DNA of 49,967 nucleotides, taken from a virus. The stretch is from positions 1-49,967 of the IMG/VR virus record IMGVR_UViG_3300038825_001243; one strand, given 5' to 3'. Positions within the stretch are counted from its first letter, which is position 1. Each line of letters opens with the position of its first letter. The notes below the pieces were generated by a model, which saw nothing but the letters and a program-made list of their open reading frames with translations, was not told where the DNA came from and searched no databases. Shown here piece after piece: positions 7,131 to 40,454 of the stretch. The position numbers were made by a program, and so were the translations under genes.

Positions 7131-7208
7131 TGGACCTGGTGGGAATTGAACCCACTTCCTGAAGTTTCCAATCAAGGCTTTACATTCAGTCGATACCATG
7201 ACAGGCCC
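7131..7208 (-). ncRNA. tmRNA tRNA-like-domain minigene (78 nt, no tag ORF)
   Basis: The minus-strand RNA starts GGGCCUG and ends CAGGUCC-A, forming a 7-bp acceptor with a G3:U70-type wobble and A discriminator, the alanine-tRNA-synthetase identity signals used by tmRNA. Instead of a D stem it has UCAU-GG-UAUCGAC, matching the tmRNA 5' consensus GG-N-UUCGAC. A second stem CUGAA/UUCAG, extended by GU/AC and CC/GG, replaces the anticodon arm. Three bases (GAA) lead to a perfect T arm GUGGG-UUCAAUU-CCCAC. CCA is not encoded. The messenger part and pseudoknots of tmRNA are absent. No conventional tRNA fold works: an anticodon-like UUGGAAA loop lacks a pairing stem. It may be a decoy or partial tmRNA; function is inference. 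Confidence 0.75.
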
Positions 7209-7213
7209 GATAT

Positions 7214-7435
7214 TCATTGTAACGTGACACGATAAAACATCAAGTTGTAAACGCCGTGGTTGTCATCCCAGTCGAAGCATCTCGCCTGCTCGGCAGTGTC
7301 GTGCTCGCCCAACACTGACAGAACCCGCACCTCCATCCACGGTGGAACTGGCATTGTCCGACCATCCTCCGAGAACTCGAACTCAGTCGGGTCAACAGGC
7401 ATCCAACCCGTCCAAGTGTCGCGTAACTTTTTCAT
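7214..7435 (-). CDS. Small hypothetical phage protein
   Basis: This 73-residue protein contains GWMPVDPTEFEFSEDG, then PVPPWMEVRVLSVLG and FDWDD...NLMFYRVTLQ. The pattern 'small residue-P-V/WMEVRV ... A..FDW ... YRV' is seen in many short phage proteins of unknown function. It is the first protein gene after the putative origin on the leftward late transcript, and its stop lies 5 bp before the 5' end of the tmRNA-like RNA gene. Confidence 0.7.
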   Translation of the reverse strand: MKKLRDTWTGWMPVDPTEFEFSEDGRTMPVPPWMEVRVLSVLGEHDTAEQARCFDWDDNHGVYNLMFYRVTLQ

Positions 7436-7491
7436 ATATTCCCGTCGAGTAGTTATTATTGGCTCACTTCAAACGTCGATCTCACTACGCC

Positions 7492-7533
7492 GCTCACTAC
7501 ACTCTCTCCTATAGAGAGAGAGAGTGAGTGAGC
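7492..7533. repeat. Long inverted repeat (GCTCACT...AGTGAGC)
   Basis: GCTCACT pairs with AGTGAGC, and inside it CACTCTCTC pairs with GAGAGAGTG, giving a stem of about 16 bp with one unpaired base and a short CTATAGAGA loop. The inner arms are CT/GA dinucleotide runs. It lies just upstream of the 73-aa gene. It could separate the primase and late units or form part of the origin. Confidence 0.65.
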
Positions 7534-7578
7534 TGAGTGGGTAAGTGCCTATAAAAGAGCGAAATCAAGAGCTTAACC

Positions 7579-7587
7579 TGTGGATAA
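7579..7587 (-). promoter_or_regulatory. Consensus DnaA box
   Basis: The minus strand reads TTATCCACA, identical to the high-affinity bacterial DnaA box. It sits between two blocks of repeats in the only long gene-free, AT-rich stretch beside the primase-helicase gene. A second relaxed match, TTTTCCACA, lies at 10021-10029 in the divergent promoter region. Confidence 0.6.
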
Positions 7588-7608
7588 CTAGCTCTTTCCC
7601 AAAAACAC

Positions 7609-7702
7609 CCAAGTGAGCCAGCTTTTATGCCATTTATCTCTTTATACTCAATCACTTGGAAAGGTTAGCTAAAATAAATACTTTTTTCCAAGTGAGCCAG
7701 CT
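7609..7702 (+). repeat. Two 15-bp direct repeats flanking an inverted half-copy
   Basis: CCAAGTGAGCCAGCT occurs at 7609-7623 and 7688-7702. The inverted core TCACTTGG lies between them at 7652-7659, and GGCTCACTT lies at 7461-7469. The arrangement fits protein-binding iterons or operators of an origin. Confidence 0.65.
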
Positions 7703-7726
7703 CTTTTAGCTCTTTTAGCTCTTTTA
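7700..7726. repeat. Tandem 9-bp AGCTCTTTT x3
   Basis: Three head-to-tail copies of AGCTCTTTT directly follow the second 15-bp repeat; related AAGAGCT/AGCTCTT words recur at about 7567-7597. This may be an AT-rich unwinding element or part of the binding array. Confidence 0.6.
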
Positions 7727-7732
7727 GAGAAA

Positions 7733-28667: not shown

Positions 28668-31600
28668 TTACCTCTTATATGGTGGTCCTACCAATAGTAC
28701 CGGTACCGCGTCACTAGGGTCTGTATCCCCCGTGTATAGAGACCATATCCCTTCGGCTGTTTCGGAGACCTGTCCTAGAGGTAGGTGTAACGCTATTCCA
28801 GCCACGTTCGCTGCAGCCTTCCAGAAAGCTACGTCTGTTTCTCCCTCGTCCTCGATCGCCTGCCCTAGCTGTTTACCTAACTTCGAGGTATCAGAGAAGA
28901 GCCTCATCCCCGCCGGACCAGACCACTTAAAATAATCAGGTTGATCCGTCGCTTGGTTGTATAAAGAGGTCGCAGATACTGTTAGTTCTCTTACAGGCAC
29001 CGCTTGTCCAAGAATAAATGATATCTGTTCGTTAGCATACTGGTGTTTTAGACAGTCCCACTCCCATTCACACTCCCGGTTCAGAGCCTCTCGTAGCAAC
29101 ACAGTGTAGATAACTGGGAACAGGTTGAGTAACAACACGTTACTAGCAAATTCCATTATCGCAGCAAAGCTCTTGAAGTTTGTCTTCCGGTAGTTTTCCA
29201 CGTTCAGATTATAGGTAGCAGAGAAATAACTATAGAAATTTGTTAGGGTTTTAATAACAGGCCCTAGTCTCTGTACCTTTGCAAGATCTTTTATCTGACC
29301 ACCGGACTGTGAATCTAGTACCGCTTGATCACCTAACGATGCTGCTGTGTCTTCTATCTTTTTCCTTTCTGCTTCGTTATTAGCTTTGTCATACCCTAAT
29401 TGCTCGAGTCCTTTCTCGTAGGCACCGATCCATGTTGGTATATCTACCAGTCTCTGCATCTTAGCGATCATAACGAAAGCACTAGCTTTCACATTGGTTA
29501 GTTGTTTAGCACCCCGTACTTGGTTCATCACCTCGCTTACTTCACGCTGCATGGTACTCGCACGAGTCACCATCATAGGAGACATACTGTTAACGAAGTC
29601 ATTGGCAGCCATCGGGTTAGTCATGAACCTTTTCAGGCCCACGATAGACCACTTGGTGCCTATCCGGGCCATAGACTGGAACATACCACTCGGCTGTAGT
29701 AGAGCAGTAGTAACTCTCCAACCCATGCCTACTACCGTTGACCCTACCCGGATGTGATTGAACGCTGTATCAATTCCGTTCTGCGATCCTACGTCTCCTA
29801 TTGCTATATCGTTTAAGGAGTCCTGCATCTCTTTGTATATCGTTGGCCCATAGTGTCTTCGGATAGCTGGCTCTAACGCCTTCAGCATCCGGTTGGCATC
29901 TGTTAGATACCTTTGCCATGCCAGTCTATGGGTAACCTCACCTACGTGCGATGTGATCACACTAAAAGTCAATTTAATCGGTCGATTGTGAACCTCTTCT
30001 GCTCTCTTCTGTACCGCAGAATCTCTAGTCTGAGCATTGCCGAAGGCTCCTTGCATCGAGGTCCTTGTTGCGTTCAGGGCCTCAAACATCTCGGACCTAA
30101 CAGAGAGTTTAGCATCGTACTTAGCGGGAAAGTAACCACCACGGTAGGTACCGAACTTAGTCTGTATTGGCTCTGCTTCTACCCACGTAGGTGTCATCCC
30201 GGTGAGCTCTTTCTCTAACGCACCCATCGGCTCCCGGTAAGTCTCGAAGTAATCTAGTACTCCCTGTACAAAATCCCACTCCCCTTTCGTGAGGGTATCT
30301 AATATCTTAGCCGCAGTGTCCTCGTCGATTGCCCTGTTGTTGGCTAGTCCACCACTTAGTAATCGCTGCCTGTTACCTAAGTTCCCCCAGTTTAAAGCGA
30401 ACATGATCCGGTTTTCCTGTGACATAGATAGATCAGTTCCAGGTACTATTCCCATCTTATTAAATAAGTTCTCTGGGACTACGTCTAACTCGAACATTTT
30501 AAATAAGTTAGCCATTACTTCGGTTGCCTGTCCTTTCATCTCAGCTTCTTCTGCCCCAGCCTCATTCATACCACGGGAGAAGAACTGTTGCATAGGTCCA
30601 CCATCTTTACCACCATCCATTTCTCTTGCAAGAGAACTAAACTTACGATGCATAGCGATAAGGGCTCGTGCAGCGTCTTTTATCTGGCCCGCTTTCGACT
30701 CATCGGTAGCTTCATCGTTAACTACCCTGTTAGAGTTGTCTACGATAGATTGCATCATCTCGGTTGCTACGATCTCGAACTCTCGCTTATCTCTCGCGTT
30801 GAGTAGTTTCTTCTTCAGTCTTCCTAGATGTTCTATGTGGTCAACGGCTTCCATCAACCCGTCTAGTTGTCCGGTGGTCATTTCTTTATAGCTCATCGTC
30901 TTCACAGAGTCTATCAGCTCTGTATCAAGAACCGGCTGAAACCCAAACTCTAAAACCTGCTCATCCATCCACTCGGCAAGTGTTCTCTTCTTATCGATAG
31001 CTTTAAGGGTCTCTCCTTTCTTGAACCTAAATGGGCTGAGTAGATCAAAGATCTGTTCTAAGTACCCAGCTTCTAAACTCTTGAGAGTACTCTTGCCCTC
31101 TAATTTTTTAACATGGTTGATGTGTTTATCTACATTCTCAATAGCCTCCCGTACTGCTTTCGCCAGGTGGTTATTAAGTAACGCGGCCTGTTGTCTAGCG
31201 GCAGCACCCACTGGATCTTTAGCGGCTAACTTCAATGCTTCTTTGTTAGCTTTAGCTTCTGCCCTGTCATACTGACCTGGACGAAGATCCCTAACTTTCA
31301 TCTTAGCTACCCGTGCGGCGGCGGCCTCCTTAGCAGCTTTATTAATCTGTGACACAGACAGAGGGGACTTGGTAAGCATCTTTAACCCTGTAGCCATCAT
31401 CCGAGCCCTTACTTTATTATGTATCGCCTTATCAACTGCTTTCTTCCTATCCTCTTCTGTAGCTAGATCTGAGTGTTCTTCTACCATTCTCTGGTCGGTA
31501 AGAGCGTCTATCTTTTCTTTCTTGTTAGGCGCGTCTAACAGATGTTGAATGAAAGTACCAGCATGCTGGAAACCAAAGATCTCTCCGACCTGTTGTGGGT

Positions 31601-34600
31601 CTAGTCCCGTAGTACTGGTCATACCGCGTAGTGATAACGGATCTACACCTAGGTCCTTTACCGCCTGAGTATTTAACTTGTGCCCTTCCGTTGCTTCTAT
31701 TTCCTCCCCTGTTTCAGTAGTCATCTTGCCAGTTTTCAAGAACGCTATAGCTCTATAGATGTCTTCCTTCTCTACTGCCTCGGTTACCTGTTCGCGGACC
31801 ACCTTACGCTCTGCGTTAGCCGTAGCCTGTAGCGCTTTCAATGCTTTATCTTGAGCATTAGACAACCATTTCATATCTCGTATGCTACGAGAGGTCAGGT
31901 CCGTAATAGCCTCCTGAGTAGCTTCATTGTGTTGATCAATATACTCTTTGAACTTAGCCTCAGAGGTGCCAGATTCCTCTGCACTAGCAAACATTGGCAT
32001 GTACTCTCGGATCTTTTCAGCCTCCGCGATACTCTCTTCTGAAGCCATCATCCTACCGAACACAGCTCTTACTTCATCGTTTAGTTTACGTGCTCTTGGG
32101 TGTGTCTTTAGGAAGTTCTCTATGTCCTTGTACACACTTAACAGCCACTGACGGAAACGTGTGAACGCTCCCTGCAGCTCTATGTTAGGCGCCTTACCTT
32201 CCAGTGTGAATAGTTCAAACGATTCTGCAAACTGTTCATGGTACTCGGTCTGTTCTTTTACGGTCATTCCATACCATTCATCTGCAGATACTCCGAACCA
32301 GTCCATAATAGTCTGGAAGTCTTCCTTGACTGTCTCGCTGGCATTTTCCTGTGCTGCGATCTGTGACAGAGCATGGAGATAGAAGTGCCCACTCTCATGT
32401 ATGACTGAGGATAGGTTAGCTCCCTTCAACAGATTGATTGTGAAGGTACTAGGATCGTACTGTGCGAGTGGTTCTTCTACTGGTCCGGGTTGAGAGAACA
32501 GTTTGATTTTACTACCGATTACAGCGTCTCTCATGGATTGATCTATCTGGATGCCGGGTTGTTTGTCCCCCGAGAGCTTCTTGAGAATCGCCCTGTTGCG
32601 ATGTTCTTCAGCTTCTTCTCTAGTCGACCAAAAGTATTCCTCGTCTGTCCACTCCCCAGCGTTGTTTAAATACCGCTCTTTGAGGAAGTGTGCGTCGTCA
32701 TGGTGATCGATTACCGATATCTGGCCCGGTGTTAGCTCCGAAAGTCTTATTAAGTTGCGGAAGGACCCTTCGCCCCGCTCGGGAAGTAGCACACCAACCT
32801 CACCAACCTCAGTGGTACTGCCTAATTCTTTTGCGATTCGGTTCATCTGGCTGGCAGCGGTCAGCTCATAGAGTTGTGCGAAACCTGTCTTGGTAACTTT
32901 CAGACTATCACCCTTTATGCTCCCAGACTGTTCAGGGTTCTCCCGGATCTGGTCAGCCATAGCCTTACCGATTGAAGCACTTAATAAGTTTTCTTCTACG
33001 TGGGTGTTGACTACTTCTCTTCCTAAACTTGATCCCAAGTCGGCTTCTATTGCTAAGTACTCGTCTATGTAGATGTCTATCTGCGAAGTATCAAAGTCGC
33101 CATTGATAAGATCAAATCCTATTACCGTCTCTTTCCACCCATCCCTTCCATGTTCGTGAACCTTAGCTATTACCATCTGTAACCCCTGCCCGGCACTTAT
33201 ATTTCCGAGGTCGTTTAAGTCTCTTGACATTTGATGTCTAGCGTTTACAAATATATCCTCCGGCATTCTCTCATTCACTTGGTGGTGTCTTTCAAGTGCA
33301 TCTTCTGCCACGCCTTTAACCCCAACAATATGTACTCCGTTCTTCGTCTTCTCCCAACGTATCTCATCCACCTCCCGACGTACCGCAGAAGACCATAGTT
33401 CAGCTTGCTGGTCACCAGTACTCCAGGCAATCGAATCGTAACCACCCTCTACCGCGTTACGCAGTAAGAGCTTCATGGCTAGTGTTACCCATTCTTTATC
33501 AGACTCAATGAACGGTGCAGATTCTTGTACAATGCCGTGATCTATCGTTACCAACTGTCCCGATATTTTTTCCTGAAGGATTATGGCTTTGTCATATTGC
33601 TCCTGTACAGCAGGGCCAATAGCCGCATCTTCGTCTGGACCGATTACATCCTTCTCTAGACGCTCCTCTAGATCCTTCACTTTCTTGTCTACCTTTATTA
33701 GATCTTTTCTAAGACGTGCTATCTGCTTATCCGTAGGTCTACTACCAATCTGCGATATGCTTCCTTTCTCATCAAACTTCCAAATTACTTTCTTCGCCCA
33801 ATCAGATTGCATCTCGTTGATGAACAGTATCTTCTCACCGTTCGGACCCTCGCGGTCGTCGACCCTAAGATGGAATAATAAGTTCTCACCTAGCTCGCCG
33901 TCGTAGTGACCCCTTGCTGTGAACCTCGCTTCCTCGCCCGACACAGGCATCCTGATTAACATTTCTCTATAGTTTGTATTTTCTCCGGGTACTCGGTACT
34001 CGGACCATTTGGGAAACCCAGTTCGCCGCTCGTCCGCATACTGAGCCTCTATTTTCTCTTCCCACTGGACACGAGCGTCCACCAAAGCGTTCGACTCATT
34101 CTCATAGTAGTTTTGATTACTTGTGCCAACATCAGCTGAGTGCCCACCAAGAGATACTCTGAAGACCGTGCTACCTGGAACTGTCTCAGTGTCTGTGATA
34201 ACCTTATACGGGTTATCATCCTCGTTAGCCATCTCTCTATCTATTCTATCCTCTAGTGTCCCCATCGTGCCTTCCTCACCCAGCACATTCTCTTCTATAC
34301 TCCAGTTCTTATTGTGGATAAAGTTCCGCACCTCGTCGAAAGGGATATGTGTTCTGGGTTTGTGTACTGACTCTGCTGCGTATACGCCCGAGTAGTCGTA
34401 GTCATTTACACTAACTTTGTACGGGAAGGTTGCTCCAACGTCCTCTAACTCATTACGATACCCGCCGGGGTAGCGTTCCATTGTCCCTCGAACCCCTGTA
34501 GGATTGAGGAGAACGGCCAACAGTTTCTCAGGCATACCTGCGTTGAGCAAATCGTTTTCATATCTGCGAGGGAATTTTATAATGTCCGAGACAGTAGTGT

Positions 34601-37600
34601 CGGGTTCATAGGTGAGGTCCTTGTGGGCCTTGGGCGCTGCCTGCGCGAGAGCTTGTTCTGCCTCCAAAGTCATTCCGGCTATCAGTTTATCTATTTGAAT
34701 AGATAACCTGTCTTTCTCTCGAGCAATGGATTCATTGTTCGCGTCTGTCTTAGCCGCTGATGCCTCCCTATCAAATATCCCCTTGAGGGTATAACCAGCT
34801 TTCTCTGTAGCAAGGAAGTTCAACAAACCAGTAGCGTTAAGCTCTGACTTCCTGATGTTCAGATGACGGTATTGAGCATCCTCAGACATCTTCTTCAGCC
34901 ATATCTCGAGGTTATTAATATTGAGCTGTTCATCTTTTCCGCCGGTCTCGTTCTTCACCATCTGTATTACTTTCAAATTCTTAACGCTCGTGAGGTTCTC
35001 TTCTATAAAGGACTCCTCTAGCCCCGAACCGATGCTCCGTAGCTGATTGAAAACAGTAGTCTCTCGGTAGTCATCGTTCTCCGGTTTCTCTTCTATCGCT
35101 TCTCTCTTGTCGACGAACGCCTGTGCTGCTTCCTCGAAGCTGATCAGCTTAGACGGTTGAGCACCTAACTCTCCGTAGAGTTTCTTCTCGTAGTACCAGA
35201 GCAGAGCCTGGATGTCTGCTATCGTTATGGTCTTTCCTTTACGTGCAAGTCTCTGTTGGGCACCTATCGCGGCTCTCATCATCAGGGCTCTGTCGGTAGG
35301 CCCTGTTGGGGCGTCTAAGGTACCCGTTACTTTCTTCCACATACTGTTGGACATTGTTTCCAACTCGGTCATACCTTTAAACCCCTTGGCCTTTGCGGCA
35401 TCCGCGTAAGGCTTGGCCGCAGCGATTACCTCCTCGTTGCTTAGACCTGGCTGGTTAGTCAATTCTTTGAACCTGTCCATAGACTGTTGCGTAGGAGCTG
35501 TAAGTAGTTCACCTCGATACCGGTTAAAGGTACGGGACCACCATCTGTCCATAGTAAGATACTCTGGCTTACCCATTAGGTTAGCGTAGAACACGCCCAC
35601 CTTAGCGCCCACCTCTAGTGCAGCAACCGGGAGTTTAGCCTCTACCCCGTAGTTACCGGCTCCTGACACATCCTTTAAATTAAATTCTTTCTTCAGGGCA
35701 CCTAGCTTACCTTCTCTCATCAGGTACCCTGTCATTCCATCAAGACCACCCTTCTGTTTGAGAAGTTTGTTCATCCTCTTTAAACTCTTGGATATAAACT
35801 CATCTTCTTTTTCTTTCTTGCCAGGAGCTAAACTAAAGGTTCCCTCTGACTCTCCACCTTTTCTAAATCTAGAATATATCCGTGTGGCTATTCCTAAGTT
35901 AACATCTGGTGACGCACCAACAGAGGTGATCCCGATTAACAAAGTGAACGCATCTCGCGCACTCTGGTTAGTAGCCAGCTCAGGGTAAACCTGTGACATT
36001 ATAGAGATCGCGTTCTCATATCTCTCTGTGTACCATCCAGCGCCATTATGTTCGGCATCTAACTCAAACATAACCTCATCAGTCATCATAGAAACAATCG
36101 CGTTGCGGAGTACTGTGTCTGATTCTTTGTCTGTTAGTTCGCGACCTTTTCTCGCAGCCGCAGCCTTCATCTTTTTATCAAGTAACTTGCGATGGTAGCC
36201 CTGTAGTGCGGCAGCCACCTGTCTCACTTTATACTTTTTCTTGCCTGGTAACTTAGGAAGTCCCAGCTTGTCAAGGGATACCTTCCCTGATCGTATGTCT
36301 GTCTGGTATAATAACTGAGTTGTCGTATCGTAAGTTACGTTACGTGCTAGTACCGCAGCCCCTACCTGAATAACTTCTTCTGCCGTTACAACAGGGGATT
36401 GGGTTTCTCTATCATAGAAGAACCCATGACGTTCTGGGTCCATCCCAACCTGTACCCATTCTGATTGTTTGTTGTCGTAGTAATCATTTAACGCGTCAAC
36501 AGCTAACTTCTTTGCTGCTTTAGGTGTACTCTTACGCAGTTTACCTTTCATGGTAGCTATCGTACCCTTGGCAGACCCTTGAGCAATCTTCAATGCTACA
36601 TCAGAACGAAGTCCAAACGACACCTCTTCAAGTACCGCGACAGTGTCATAACCGATTACGGTATCAGCATCGTAAACATTCTTACCCTTCCTATCTTCAT
36701 GCACAGCTAGTACCCACGCACCGTGGTTCGTGTAGCTTGGGATATCTAAACGAACCCCAACTCGATGTTTGTCTTTTAACGTCCGTGGTTTGCCAAACTT
36801 ATCTGCTTTCTTTTTAGACTGCCCCTTACCCTTAGTAAGAGCAGCCTTCGCTGCCTTATCTGTGCTAGGCGGCGCAATGCTAGTGTAGGGGTGTACAGGC
36901 TTAGTCGCGTTGATTGCCTTTTGGTGCGCGGTAAACGTAGCGGTGTCACCCGGTTTAATAAGTGCTGCCGTACCTTGTAACGTGGGTACTCGCTTTGTGG
37001 CCTCTTTAAAACCACCTTTCATCCGTGGGTCAGCATCTATCTTTGCTTGATCTTTCTCTCGTGATCGCTTACCTGGTCCGGTTTCTTCAAATGGGTTTGC
37101 AATTACTTTCCCTTCAGCGTCTCTAAAAACATCTTTACCATTCTTATCTTTCTCGAAGTCCACAGTAAATAAGGCATCAGTCTTGGGGATCTCAGTGTAG
37201 GGATCCTCGGGGTTTATGGATGCTTCCCCTACCCTTACATGTTCCGCTATTTGTCTTACGTCATTGTAGTATATAAACCCTTTCGGTACCTGTACCGAAT
37301 CTTGTTTATACTTATTACCTAGTGCGTGTGCTTCATCCGGTGTTATCCCTAGGATAGTGAAACCAGGCTCTGCTGAGAAGTGCTTATACTTCCCATTGGA
37401 GTTCACATACTCGAATCCTCTAGCGATTAACTCTTCTTCTAGCTCTATATTCGCTTGCTCATTCTTTTCATCCGCTGTTCCAGTCTTGTCTGTTTTATTC
37501 TTGTCTGAGTACGCAGTAATAATAGCCCAACCTGAACTGTCAAGTAGCGTATGGAGGTTCTCTGGCTTGAAATTATCTAAGGTAGCAGCAGGTTTGGTAG

Positions 37601-40454
37601 GTTGACTAAACCCTACATTCTTACCGTCGGCAGAGATCTTGAGAGGGTTTAGTTTATATATCTGTTCAACAGACACTCCCTCTCTCGCTGCCTGTACCAT
37701 GTAGAAATTAGCTAGTGGTACGATACTGCTTTCTACCACGCTATCACTGTACTTGCCTGTAGCTTTTAACTCTCCACGTATCTTCTCACGGAGGCTAACA
37801 ACTTGTGCGTTGAAAGCAGCTACCGGGTCGTTCTCTTCTAGATATTCTTCGTATGTTTGTTTCACTCCCCAACGTCGCTCAATGGAGGGATCCATCCCAG
37901 CGACTACGTCATCTATATACTTAAAAGCCGCTTCAGCATCATAATGCGAACCGGGGTAGAACTGGTGTCTATGCCGGTCAGACCTAGTGTTTGCAGGGGA
38001 ATGGTCCGATACTCGTACTGACGTTTTTTCATTCGAATAGTACTTACTAATTCCGTAATGATCTTGAAATTTGCCAGTGCTTTCATCAACTAGCTTAAAT
38101 CCCTTAGACTCTAAGTAGTCAGGTACCTGATTATCTTCAAAAGGTTTGAACACTGCCTTTCTCGGGACTAGCTTGTCTTTTCGTCGTCTTTCTGCCCTAT
38201 CCTCTAGAAACCTATGATGGCTGTAAAAAGTAGTAGGGTCTCGTTTCTTCTTTTGTTTCCGTAAAGTCTTGATAATCATATTATATCTATCAGGATTAGT
38301 AGACTTCATACCTTTCATAAAGGATAACTTCTCTGACTCTGTTAGTTTCTTAACTTTATTGGTATCCCTTTCCCCTGCTTCGGCAGCCGTCGGCTCTACT
38401 GCTTCGGTAGCAACTTCTTTTTCTGGTTCAGAAACTTCTACCTGTTGTGCATCGAACTCTTCTCTGGTTAGTATTGGAGTGTTCTCAGCAACTACCCTAG
38501 CTATGTCCTGTTCAAATAGTTCTTGCTGTTCTTTGATTACTGTCTTGGATTCTTTGAAAGTCAACCCGTCAGGCCTAACCCGTATGTCATCTATAATAGC
38601 TTCTTCAATAGGAGTCCCCGCGAACAACACTAAGTAGTCCGAAGTTTTGATGCTGACTTCACCTCTAGCAGATAGTGCTGTCTGTAGTTCATCAAACAGT
38701 TCAGGAGCTTTAGCTTTAAGTTCTTCTGGGGTTACTCCGTTCTGATTGAATGCCTCCTGTAACACCCCTCCATCTATTAGCAGACTCTCAGGAGCTCCCT
38801 CCTCTCCTAGTACCTGAACGAACTCTTTAAACTTCTCATCTGATCTTTTACGAAGAGGATTGTCCGGTGTTAATTCTGATAGCTTCCCAAGTATAGCTCT
38901 GTCTGCTTTCGCTCTCGCAGCCTTGGCTGTCGCAGCGTTGGCTGTCGCGTATAAATCATTCAGCCATTCCTCTTCTTCTTTTACCCGTTTTTTCTCGCGC
39001 GCTTGAGCGACTCTGTTAACGCCTACCGCTCCCGCGCTTATTCCAGCGCCGCCCATTGCACCCATCGCACCGCCGAACAATGTCTCTTGTACATTCTCCT
39101 CGGTTAACGGGTCCTGATAGGAAGCGAGTTGTTCTATCGGGTTTTGTATTATTTCCTCTATCCCTTCGATTATGGTGTTTCTTGATACCGTTTTAATCAC
39201 ACCGTCTGAGGAAAGCATATCCCTCAGCGACTTCCACCCTTCTTTAGTTCCGAGTTTTGTCGCCCACTGTTGGGGACCGAAGCTCTTTTCTATCGCGCCT
39301 ACTATGGTTGCACCAAGCAGAGCGATAAGTTTTGACCCCATATCATTTAAATTATCTGGATCTCCGTGGATCTGTTCACGACGAATCCCTTCATAGGAAG
39401 GAGCCCCGACGGCTACAACAGGGCCACCATATTTTAAAGCATACCCCAAGGCCCTCATCATGCCCTTTGCGAATGGGTGTGGCGCAAACGCAGAAGCACG
39501 AATCAAACCGTCCCCGGCGGCAACAGATGTTCCTATTGATACCATCGAGGGTGCCGCGTTACCTATTGCTTCCCTGAACGCTAACAAAGGATCTTTCGCG
39601 ATGTCCCCCAAACTATGTATCCCGAGAGGGTTGTCTTTCATCAACTGTCTGCCGAACTCAGCGACGACGTTGTCCTGATCTGCTCCAAGGAAATCCGCAG
39701 CTTCACGACCAAGACCTGCTATCGTCTGACCCGTCATACTCAGAACAGAAGCTCCAAACCCACCTACCTCTTCTGGAGGTGTTTTATTAAAGCTGACCAT
39801 CATCTCTTCAAACTCTTTCATGTCCTCTAAATCTTTTCCAACTATCTCTGCGTTACCTTCTCGCTGTATAAACTTAGAGGTACCGGGATAGTTTAAGCGT
39901 AACCCCTCCCCTGAATTTCTTTTTATAATTGCTTGAGACTCAGCATCTTCAGGAAGTAATCCCGGTGGTGCATCTAGTTCCCTAGCTAACTTTGCATTTT
40001 TAGCTACCTGATCCCCGTCAGAATAACTAGCACGAATAACAGCGCGCCTGGTATCTTCTCTAAGGTTTTGATTTTCACTGTATTGCTGTCCCGCTGCAGT
40101 TGCTTCTTCTCGAGTAGGATACTGTCCTAAGTGCTGACCAGTTTTATGATAATATTTTATAGCATCTTCATCCGACATAACTTCCCCAGTTTCTGGATGA
40201 ACTGTAGGAATTAGTGTCTCTTTACCATCTATCTCAAAGGATCTGGATACAAGAGATCTTTCTGATCCATCCTCGTTTGGAAAGCGAGTTCTTGTAGTAG
40301 GGTCGAAGTTCGCCGGCTCCAATGGTTCACTCAAGGCATCTGACACGACTGTCGCTGGCGTCACTTTCTCTGGTAGTATTGGTTCCGGGGTGTTGGGATC
40401 TACAACAGCGCCTTCGTAGAACGGTGGAAACTCTGAGTTATTTTCTGGCTCCAT
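28668..40454 (-). CDS. Giant (3928-residue) polyvalent ejection protein
   Basis: This protein resembles 'large polyvalent proteins' of phages. Near the N-terminus (about 45-130) is a known phage motif, SFEIDGKETLIPTVHPETG with EDAIKYYHKTGQHLG. A DUF3293-like segment lies around 965-1065 (SSGWAIITAYS). A 'LDIPSYTNHGAWV...LKIAQGSAKGTIA' type domain follows. At about 2050-2400 lies a segment with FINEMQSDW and GYDSIAWSTGDQQAELW. A zinc metallopeptidase motif HESGH occupies 2686-2690. The end (about 3500-3928) is helical with hydrophobic parts. It is probably carried in the virion core and injected with DNA, with protective or host-modifying domains. It equals about a quarter of the coding capacity. 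Domain names are by pattern. Confidence 0.8.
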   Translation of the reverse strand: MEPENNSEFPPFYEGAVVDPNTPEPILPEKVTPATVVSDALSEPLEPANFDPTTRTRFPNEDGSERSLVSRSFEIDGKETLIPTVHPETGEVMSDEDAIKYYHKTGQHLGQYPTREEATAAGQQYSENQNLREDTRRAVIRASYSDGDQVAKNAKLARELDAPPGLLPEDAESQAIIKRNSGEGLRLNYPGTSKFIQREGNAEIVGKDLEDMKEFEEMMVSFNKTPPEEVGGFGASVLSMTGQTIAGLGREAADFLGADQDNVVAEFGRQLMKDNPLGIHSLGDIAKDPLLAFREAIGNAAPSMVSIGTSVAAGDGLIRASAFAPHPFAKGMMRALGYALKYGGPVVAVGAPSYEGIRREQIHGDPDNLNDMGSKLIALLGATIVGAIEKSFGPQQWATKLGTKEGWKSLRDMLSSDGVIKTVSRNTIIEGIEEIIQNPIEQLASYQDPLTEENVQETLFGGAMGAMGGAGISAGAVGVNRVAQAREKKRVKEEEEWLNDLYATANAATAKAARAKADRAILGKLSELTPDNPLRKRSDEKFKEFVQVLGEEGAPESLLIDGGVLQEAFNQNGVTPEELKAKAPELFDELQTALSARGEVSIKTSDYLVLFAGTPIEEAIIDDIRVRPDGLTFKESKTVIKEQQELFEQDIARVVAENTPILTREEFDAQQVEVSEPEKEVATEAVEPTAAEAGERDTNKVKKLTESEKLSFMKGMKSTNPDRYNMIIKTLRKQKKKRDPTTFYSHHRFLEDRAERRRKDKLVPRKAVFKPFEDNQVPDYLESKGFKLVDESTGKFQDHYGISKYYSNEKTSVRVSDHSPANTRSDRHRHQFYPGSHYDAEAAFKYIDDVVAGMDPSIERRWGVKQTYEEYLEENDPVAAFNAQVVSLREKIRGELKATGKYSDSVVESSIVPLANFYMVQAAREGVSVEQIYKLNPLKISADGKNVGFSQPTKPAATLDNFKPENLHTLLDSSGWAIITAYSDKNKTDKTGTADEKNEQANIELEEELIARGFEYVNSNGKYKHFSAEPGFTILGITPDEAHALGNKYKQDSVQVPKGFIYYNDVRQIAEHVRVGEASINPEDPYTEIPKTDALFTVDFEKDKNGKDVFRDAEGKVIANPFEETGPGKRSREKDQAKIDADPRMKGGFKEATKRVPTLQGTAALIKPGDTATFTAHQKAINATKPVHPYTSIAPPSTDKAAKAALTKGKGQSKKKADKFGKPRTLKDKHRVGVRLDIPSYTNHGAWVLAVHEDRKGKNVYDADTVIGYDTVAVLEEVSFGLRSDVALKIAQGSAKGTIATMKGKLRKSTPKAAKKLAVDALNDYYDNKQSEWVQVGMDPERHGFFYDRETQSPVVTAEEVIQVGAAVLARNVTYDTTTQLLYQTDIRSGKVSLDKLGLPKLPGKKKYKVRQVAAALQGYHRKLLDKKMKAAAARKGRELTDKESDTVLRNAIVSMMTDEVMFELDAEHNGAGWYTERYENAISIMSQVYPELATNQSARDAFTLLIGITSVGASPDVNLGIATRIYSRFRKGGESEGTFSLAPGKKEKEDEFISKSLKRMNKLLKQKGGLDGMTGYLMREGKLGALKKEFNLKDVSGAGNYGVEAKLPVAALEVGAKVGVFYANLMGKPEYLTMDRWWSRTFNRYRGELLTAPTQQSMDRFKELTNQPGLSNEEVIAAAKPYADAAKAKGFKGMTELETMSNSMWKKVTGTLDAPTGPTDRALMMRAAIGAQQRLARKGKTITIADIQALLWYYEKKLYGELGAQPSKLISFEEAAQAFVDKREAIEEKPENDDYRETTVFNQLRSIGSGLEESFIEENLTSVKNLKVIQMVKNETGGKDEQLNINNLEIWLKKMSEDAQYRHLNIRKSELNATGLLNFLATEKAGYTLKGIFDREASAAKTDANNESIAREKDRLSIQIDKLIAGMTLEAEQALAQAAPKAHKDLTYEPDTTVSDIIKFPRRYENDLLNAGMPEKLLAVLLNPTGVRGTMERYPGGYRNELEDVGATFPYKVSVNDYDYSGVYAAESVHKPRTHIPFDEVRNFIHNKNWSIEENVLGEEGTMGTLEDRIDREMANEDDNPYKVITDTETVPGSTVFRVSLGGHSADVGTSNQNYYENESNALVDARVQWEEKIEAQYADERRTGFPKWSEYRVPGENTNYREMLIRMPVSGEEARFTARGHYDGELGENLLFHLRVDDREGPNGEKILFINEMQSDWAKKVIWKFDEKGSISQIGSRPTDKQIARLRKDLIKVDKKVKDLEERLEKDVIGPDEDAAIGPAVQEQYDKAIILQEKISGQLVTIDHGIVQESAPFIESDKEWVTLAMKLLLRNAVEGGYDSIAWSTGDQQAELWSSAVRREVDEIRWEKTKNGVHIVGVKGVAEDALERHHQVNERMPEDIFVNARHQMSRDLNDLGNISAGQGLQMVIAKVHEHGRDGWKETVIGFDLINGDFDTSQIDIYIDEYLAIEADLGSSLGREVVNTHVEENLLSASIGKAMADQIRENPEQSGSIKGDSLKVTKTGFAQLYELTAASQMNRIAKELGSTTEVGEVGVLLPERGEGSFRNLIRLSELTPGQISVIDHHDDAHFLKERYLNNAGEWTDEEYFWSTREEAEEHRNRAILKKLSGDKQPGIQIDQSMRDAVIGSKIKLFSQPGPVEEPLAQYDPSTFTINLLKGANLSSVIHESGHFYLHALSQIAAQENASETVKEDFQTIMDWFGVSADEWYGMTVKEQTEYHEQFAESFELFTLEGKAPNIELQGAFTRFRQWLLSVYKDIENFLKTHPRARKLNDEVRAVFGRMMASEESIAEAEKIREYMPMFASAEESGTSEAKFKEYIDQHNEATQEAITDLTSRSIRDMKWLSNAQDKALKALQATANAERKVVREQVTEAVEKEDIYRAIAFLKTGKMTTETGEEIEATEGHKLNTQAVKDLGVDPLSLRGMTSTTGLDPQQVGEIFGFQHAGTFIQHLLDAPNKKEKIDALTDQRMVEEHSDLATEEDRKKAVDKAIHNKVRARMMATGLKMLTKSPLSVSQINKAAKEAAAARVAKMKVRDLRPGQYDRAEAKANKEALKLAAKDPVGAAARQQAALLNNHLAKAVREAIENVDKHINHVKKLEGKSTLKSLEAGYLEQIFDLLSPFRFKKGETLKAIDKKRTLAEWMDEQVLEFGFQPVLDTELIDSVKTMSYKEMTTGQLDGLMEAVDHIEHLGRLKKKLLNARDKREFEIVATEMMQSIVDNSNRVVNDEATDESKAGQIKDAARALIAMHRKFSSLAREMDGGKDGGPMQQFFSRGMNEAGAEEAEMKGQATEVMANLFKMFELDVVPENLFNKMGIVPGTDLSMSQENRIMFALNWGNLGNRQRLLSGGLANNRAIDEDTAAKILDTLTKGEWDFVQGVLDYFETYREPMGALEKELTGMTPTWVEAEPIQTKFGTYRGGYFPAKYDAKLSVRSEMFEALNATRTSMQGAFGNAQTRDSAVQKRAEEVHNRPIKLTFSVITSHVGEVTHRLAWQRYLTDANRMLKALEPAIRRHYGPTIYKEMQDSLNDIAIGDVGSQNGIDTAFNHIRVGSTVVGMGWRVTTALLQPSGMFQSMARIGTKWSIVGLKRFMTNPMAANDFVNSMSPMMVTRASTMQREVSEVMNQVRGAKQLTNVKASAFVMIAKMQRLVDIPTWIGAYEKGLEQLGYDKANNEAERKKIEDTAASLGDQAVLDSQSGGQIKDLAKVQRLGPVIKTLTNFYSYFSATYNLNVENYRKTNFKSFAAIMEFASNVLLLNLFPVIYTVLLREALNRECEWEWDCLKHQYANEQISFILGQAVPVRELTVSATSLYNQATDQPDYFKWSGPAGMRLFSDTSKLGKQLGQAIEDEGETDVAFWKAAANVAGIALHLPLGQVSETAEGIWSLYTGDTDPSDAVPVLLVGPPYKR

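Follow-up and report, generated by a model that had tools for sequence, protein, structure and literature searches.

The window analysed here is a stretch of 49,967 nucleotides of viral DNA (IMG/VR record IMGVR_UViG_3300038825_001243, positions 1 to 49,967), which carries on its minus strand, between a short open reading frame (ORF) and an HNH endonuclease gene, a 78-nt RNA gene that is confirmed by sequence comparison as the tRNA-like domain (TLD) of a transfer-messenger RNA (tmRNA) without its messenger part, in a phage. The RNA, hereafter referred to as a mini-tmRNA, reads from 7208 to 7131 as GGGCCUG-UCAU-GG-UAUCGAC-UGAAUGUAAAGCCUUGAUUGGAAACUUCAG-GAA-GUGGGUUCAAUUCCCAC-CAGGUCC-A, and when fully segmented as GGGCCUG-UCAU-GG-UAUCGAC-UGAA-UGUAAAG-CC-UUGAUU-GG-AAAC-UUCAG-GAA-GUGGG-UUCAAUU-CCCAC-CAGGUCC-A. 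Its parts, followed by the two adjacent genes, are given below with the evidence for each, where RF00023 is the Rfam model of the standard tmRNA, R1 is a covariance model built from 40 other viral sequences with the window excluded from training, and P2 is the long second stem.

7131..7208, minus strand (5' end at 7208): TLD-only tmRNA ('mini-tmRNA'), 78 nt; RF00023 51.7 bits, R1 62.5 bits
7202..7208, minus strand: acceptor stem 5' strand GGGCCUG, G3 pairing with U70; sequence, family covariation at pairs 4-7
7189..7197, minus strand: GGUAUCGAC, the tmRNA D-loop-like motif (GGNNUCGAC) replacing the D arm; sequence, RF00023 alignment, present in 42/52 family members not selected for the motif
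7185..7189, minus strand: P2 5' strand CUGAA, its first C being the last base of the GGUAUCGAC motif; minimum free energy fold, family covariation
7164..7184, minus strand: P2 cap, an A-rich internal loop (UGUAAAG/AAAC) around the small hairpin CC-UUGAUU-GG (7168-7177); family columns A98%, A85% and A71%, covarying CCG/CGG stem in the family
7159..7163, minus strand: P2 3' strand UUCAG; minimum free energy fold, family covariation
7139..7155, minus strand: T arm GUGGG-UUCAAUU-CCCAC; RF00023 alignment, fold, R1
7131..7138, minus strand: acceptor stem 3' strand CAGGUCC and discriminator A; sequence
7214..7435, minus strand: 73-aa ORF directly upstream, no assigned function; 5 nt separate its stop from the RNA, with the same spacing in the related contig L002
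6711..7103, minus strand: HNH endonuclease gene directly downstream; phrog_23251, E 6e-25, 72% identical in L002

A search of the whole window with RF00023 matched the RNA at 51.7 bits (curated cut-off 47, E 1.4e-17), the alignment spanning model positions 1-374 with both model ends matched and about 310 interior positions, those of the tag ORF and the pseudoknots, deleted. Since the messenger part, i.e. the tag reading frame and the pseudoknots, is absent from this alignment, the RNA, as judged from its sequence, is functionally not a complete tmRNA. RF00023 was the best match of its clan, which includes tRNA, and displaced weaker matches of the same clan at the locus, while ARAGORN called neither a tRNA nor a tmRNA. 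An ordinary tRNA was thus rejected: ARAGORN is silent, a 21-nt region inside P2 stands in place of a 7-nt anticodon loop, there is no D arm and tmRNA is the best clan match. The original prediction had read hallmarks of tmRNA rather than tRNA in these letters, and both the covariance model score and the lack of any better score as an ordinary tRNA bear it out. The alanine identity set that it pointed to (G3:U70 and A73) is present in the sequence, and UCAU-GG-UAUCGAC in place of a D arm is recovered in the RF00023 alignment; the long second stem, the 3-nt linker and the T arm are recovered by the fold, the RF00023 alignment and the family covariation. The gene does not encode CCA (the 3' end reads ..GGUCCA-AAA). 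Because the single-sequence fold barely exceeds shuffled sequences (z -1.5), the case rests on comparative evidence, in which R1 scored the RNA at 62.5 bits (E 3e-15), as against 14-25 bits for genuine tRNAs in the same searches.

The comparative evidence comes from two pattern scans of IMG/VR. The fixed elements of the first were U70-C-C-A, the T loop and GGNNUCGAC alone; a gap of 17-47 was allowed, and pairing and size were left free. It returned at least 119 stretches; more than 100 viral contigs carry the same kind of RNA, mostly of 74-80 nt. Among the 120 matches listed, the window included, a perfect 7-bp acceptor is found in 118 and G3 lies opposite U70 in 119, although the pattern fixed only U70; L092 and L122 are doubtful, and L014, L066 and L102 overlap ARAGORN tmRNA calls. 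By length all but a few belong to one of two classes, 59-65 or 74-80 nt, and the window RNA, with its 78 nt and an R1 score well above the 25 bits or less of tRNAs, fits the longer, P2-capped class. The pattern of the second scan consisted of the T arm, GGAC and the cap CCGCAYGCGG, without the 5' half, and yielded 79 loci (56 new), from which 52 distinct sequences were checked. All 52 have a 7-bp acceptor with G3:U70, the chance of a 7-bp stem being about 0.02 for each, and 42 carry GGNNUCGAC exactly, the other ten having close variants. Exact 20-mers of the window RNA had no match in IMG/VR, and BLAST of a 141-nt region against phages gave only T-arm matches to tRNAs; BLAST matches in Alcaligenes, Gordonia and mycobacteriophages were rejected (R1 30 bits or less), being degenerate, tRNA or attP. 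In the shorter class of 59-65 nt (L008, L010, L027, L030, L032, L052, L065, L075, L099, L103, L112), P2 ends in a simple small loop, and RF00023 detects L010 and L030, at 60.9 and 72.7 bits.

As judged from these sequences the family has a fixed plan, namely the tmRNA tRNA-like domain and a P2 that ends in a conserved A-rich loop and a small hairpin, and the covariation in it is overwhelming. In the 40 sequences from which the window was excluded, 22 pairs were 95% paired by cells and showed 225 double-change cells, compared to 60 in shuffles; in 86 distinct sequences the corresponding values were 95.8% and 512, compared to 148. The alignment of 86 was fitted to the model and is hence biased toward its structure, for which reason a slid control was added: moving the 3' partners by 1-3 columns lowered the double-change cells to 70-119. 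The linker varies from 3 to 6 nt across the family (GAA, 3 nt, in the window), owing to which a first MAFFT alignment of all members (A1) misregistered the acceptor; two alignments took its place, one of a subset with constant linker (A2) and one fitted to the model (A5). P2 has about 7 bp in the family and 5 plus 2 in the window; columns of the A-rich 5' loop inside it have A in 98%, 85% and 71% of sequences, and the 3-bp hairpin covaries (CG to GC, GC to CG/AU) around a loop that is usually CNNG or GNRA. The window carries UAAAG-CC-UUGAUU-GG at the cap position. This large uniform family with its conserved hairpin-capped P2 arm was missed by the original prediction.

The family alignment also bears on the earlier suggestion that the RNA arose from an E. 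coli-like ssrA by loss of the middle part, based on the decamer GAAUGUAAAG common to both. The decamer is indeed present in E. coli ssrA; given, however, that its GAAUG part falls in the P2 5' strand, which varies, and its UAAAG part in the loop kept in unrelated members, the resemblance is coincidental and its reading as a deletion scar was rejected.

Unannotated copies were found in six isolates, the Streptomyces phages pSt2308, LuckySocke, BRock, Riptide and Shaeky (R1 64-93 bits) and the Pontimonas phage phiPsal1 (76.6 bits), true tRNAs in the same loci scoring 14-25; GiJojo and Alone3 match by BLAST only. The mini-tmRNA lies within the tRNA array in Shaeky and the larger Streptomyces phages, and between the head-protease and major-capsid genes in phiPsal1 and L011; a tRNA occurs within 300 bp in 23 of the 118 IMG/VR loci listed. 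Whole-record searches with RF00023 found only the mini form in five of the six named phages. Riptide (L242) alone adds a full tmRNA (record positions 94862-95130), its mini form at 2477-2553 having UUCGAC degenerated to UUAGAU. Bacterial and archaeal genomes totalling 257 Gb gave about 20 phage-type matches. At only 3 of the 118 loci listed does ARAGORN report a tmRNA, which may be why the family is unannotated.

Two other RNA types were encountered. An 83-nt TLD-only tmRNA-like RNA with the P2 hairpin GAAAGC..GCUUUC occurs in L129, L134, L154, L156, L172, L189, L205 and L208, mostly metagenome-assembled genomes of Poribacteria; the L129 genome also holds a full 355-nt tmRNA, and the 83-nt form could be of either bacterial or proviral origin. 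L132, L139, L141, L143, L144, L155, L160, L165, L174, L180, L184, L190, L214, L223 and others, mostly Eremiobacterota/WPS-2, hold a 72-nt tRNA-like element (GGGGCGUUUCGAUGGUGUCGAC..), sometimes in two copies per locus, which has G3:U70 and what looks like a D stem and lacks a normal anticodon loop. The element of L141 had no Rfam tRNA or tmRNA match above cut-off, and two genomes with such elements also hold a full tmRNA.

In the window the HNH gene starts (ATG) 27 nt past the mini-tmRNA, and the leftward block runs on to the small and large terminase genes. The phage genes are podovirus-like, with tail proteins, an internal virion protein and a very large protein of 3928 aa; the latter is a single ORF at 28668-40454 with DUF3293 and a sub-threshold LPD22 match, and is a large polyvalent-type protein. 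The terminase is BPP-1/Rauchvirus-like and about 40% identical to those of named phages, and a BLAST search with the window's first 25 kb found no near phage. Repeats, among them TCTCTCTC/GAGAGAGA and AGCTCTTTTAGCTCTTTTAG, occur in the intergenic region 7440-7730, and L002 has a similar region in the corresponding place. Three contigs, L002-L004, have a terminase 89% identical to that of the window and a syntenic element (L002:6926-6990), also located 5 nt after the stop. Its acceptor strands are identical to those of the window RNA, GGUAUCGA is changed to GGUAACGA and CCUUGAUUGG to CCUUGAAUGG, P2 differs in sequence yet pairs, and the cap is kept. Since the interior resemblance exceeds that of 992 of 1000 shuffles and the acceptor strands are kept, the RNA was probably ancestral to the window phage and L002-L004 and decayed or changed in the latter, whose element is either a product of decay or a T-armless derivative.

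G3:U70 together with A73 constitutes the recognition set of alanyl-tRNA synthetase (AlaRS), and the tmRNA-type elbow is the site of SmpB binding. The product of the 78-nt gene would be a phage tmRNA of which only the tRNA-like domain is left, with P2 capped by a hairpin; after processing and CCA addition it could be charged with alanine by the host AlaRS, bind EF-Tu and SmpB through its elbow and compete with the host ssrA tmRNA for SmpB, EF-Tu or stalled ribosomes. Since it has no template, it could support neither tagging nor termination, and its presence during infection would dominantly inhibit trans-translation. According to the passages of PMC4131195 and PMC11915505 that cite Mao et al. 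2009, Mycobacterium phage DS6A has a TLD-only tmRNA, and a molecule similar to it is a strong inhibitor of tmRNA in E. coli whether or not it can be charged, perhaps through titration of SmpB. Competitive inhibition is favoured because the AlaRS and elbow elements are kept, the template is gone and a DS6A-like molecule inhibits tmRNA, and by this analogy a role of the mini-tmRNA as such a competitor is considered fairly likely; it probably jams the bacterial rescue of stalled ribosomes. The decoy of ribosome rescue named in the original prediction is hence the function best supported, by analogy. Also counted in its favour are an intact domain lacking the tag region whose identity and elbow elements are kept where they were not selected for, the narrow sizes, the presence in many unrelated phages within tRNA arrays or capsid operons, and the finding that Riptide is the sole holder of a full tmRNA among the six named phages searched whole. 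The wider proposal of a widespread phage RNA class, missed by tRNA and tmRNA gene finders and acting as an RNA-only antagonist of ribosome rescue, in which the capped A-rich P2 is a new functional element replacing the messenger part, is put forward tentatively, as quite possible.

Several points weigh against competitive inhibition. Parts of the domain were preselected by the first pattern scan. In the L002-L004 element the T arm is missing altogether and the fold is rod-like, and this loss means that the RNA is dispensable or changing there. R1 found a mini-tmRNA in none of 80 more distant terminase relatives, as would be expected for a gene passed around sporadically. The E. coli result rests on the two papers citing Mao et al. 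2009, and we infer expression, charging, binding to SmpB or EF-Tu and benefit to the window phage.

It is unlikely that the RNA is instead a working tmRNA that rescues without a template, adding alanine to the stalled peptide for another factor to release, or several alanines in turn as an alanine tail. Every charging and elbow-binding element is kept, and tmRNAs without a coding sequence (CDS) persist in mitochondria and some plastids, those of mitochondria co-occurring with SmpB (PMC11915505), but nothing is known to release the ribosome without a template, and inhibition of tmRNA by the similar molecule did not depend on its being chargeable, according to the relevant passage of PMC4131195. 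The frequent position inside phage tRNA arrays, which can counter tRNA loss, would suit a decoy for some other target, such as a nuclease that attacks tRNAs or a defence protein that senses RNA; such a decoy is improbable in view of conservation in tmRNA-specific elements (GGNNUCGAC, G3:U70) and the absence of an anticodon arm to offer anticodon nucleases.

Very improbable, too, is a remnant with no RNA function, either of an integration site (attP in the host ssrA) or of a captured ssrA. While ssrA is a common attB, and the attP of cluster K mycobacteriophages holds the tmRNA 3' end beside the integrase (PMC10865867), both TLD halves are contiguous in the window, no integrase was found among the 40 window proteins tested, and the attP control L245 has no R1 match, on which grounds attP-in-ssrA was rejected for the window RNA; the family, moreover, shows strong covariation and fixed size. 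The integration site of DS6A is a tRNA-Lys gene (PMC10865867) and hence not its TLD. Two-piece tmRNAs occur in marine phages (PMC9004378), so that the RNA might be the acceptor piece of one whose coding piece lies elsewhere in the phage. This is barely conceivable and was rejected, as a single RNA holds both P2 strands, joined by a short conserved cap, whereas in two-piece tmRNAs they lie on separate pieces, and the RF00023 search found no second tmRNA match anywhere in the window.

The TLD-only architecture in well over 100 viral contigs and six isolates suggests either that interference with trans-translation is common among phages or that a template-less tmRNA has a job of its own. The isolates from laboratory Streptomyces strains open the family to direct testing, and the new covariance model allows its annotation.

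Compared with the standard one-piece tmRNA (RF00023), the window RNA shares the G3:U70 acceptor, the GGNNUCGAC elbow motif, the T arm and P2 and scores above the Rfam cut-off, but has 78 instead of about 350 nt, lacks the tag frame and pseudoknots and closes P2 with an A-rich loop and a small hairpin. The cluster K attP likewise places tmRNA 3'-end sequence in a phage; it differs in holding the 3' half only, with the integrase adjacent and no R1 match. CDS-less tmRNAs, which also have a tRNA-like domain without a tag ORF, are known from plastids (Mallomonadaceae, about 65 bp) and mitochondria, those of the latter being mostly permuted (PMC11915505); the plastid forms are organellar, and their size suits the 59-65 nt class rather than the 78-nt window RNA. 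The 2025 tmRNA database holds 97,179 tmRNAs, with nine standard-form sequences lacking a CDS. The original prediction knew of no described system of this type; one is on record, the TLD-only tmRNA of DS6A (tmRNA Website tmID 11587), according to the passages of PMC4131195 and PMC11915505 citing Mao et al. 2009, a similar molecule being the tmRNA inhibitor discussed above. The genome of the window phage, like that of DS6A, carries a tRNA-like domain without a CDS; the likeness is one of description, and DS6A is one phage on record, in contrast to a family in many unrelated phages. In the literature searched no description of TLD-only phage tmRNA as a family was found. A TLD-only phage tmRNA is thus already known from one phage example; what is new is the breadth of the family, its uniform size and its conserved capped P2 arm.
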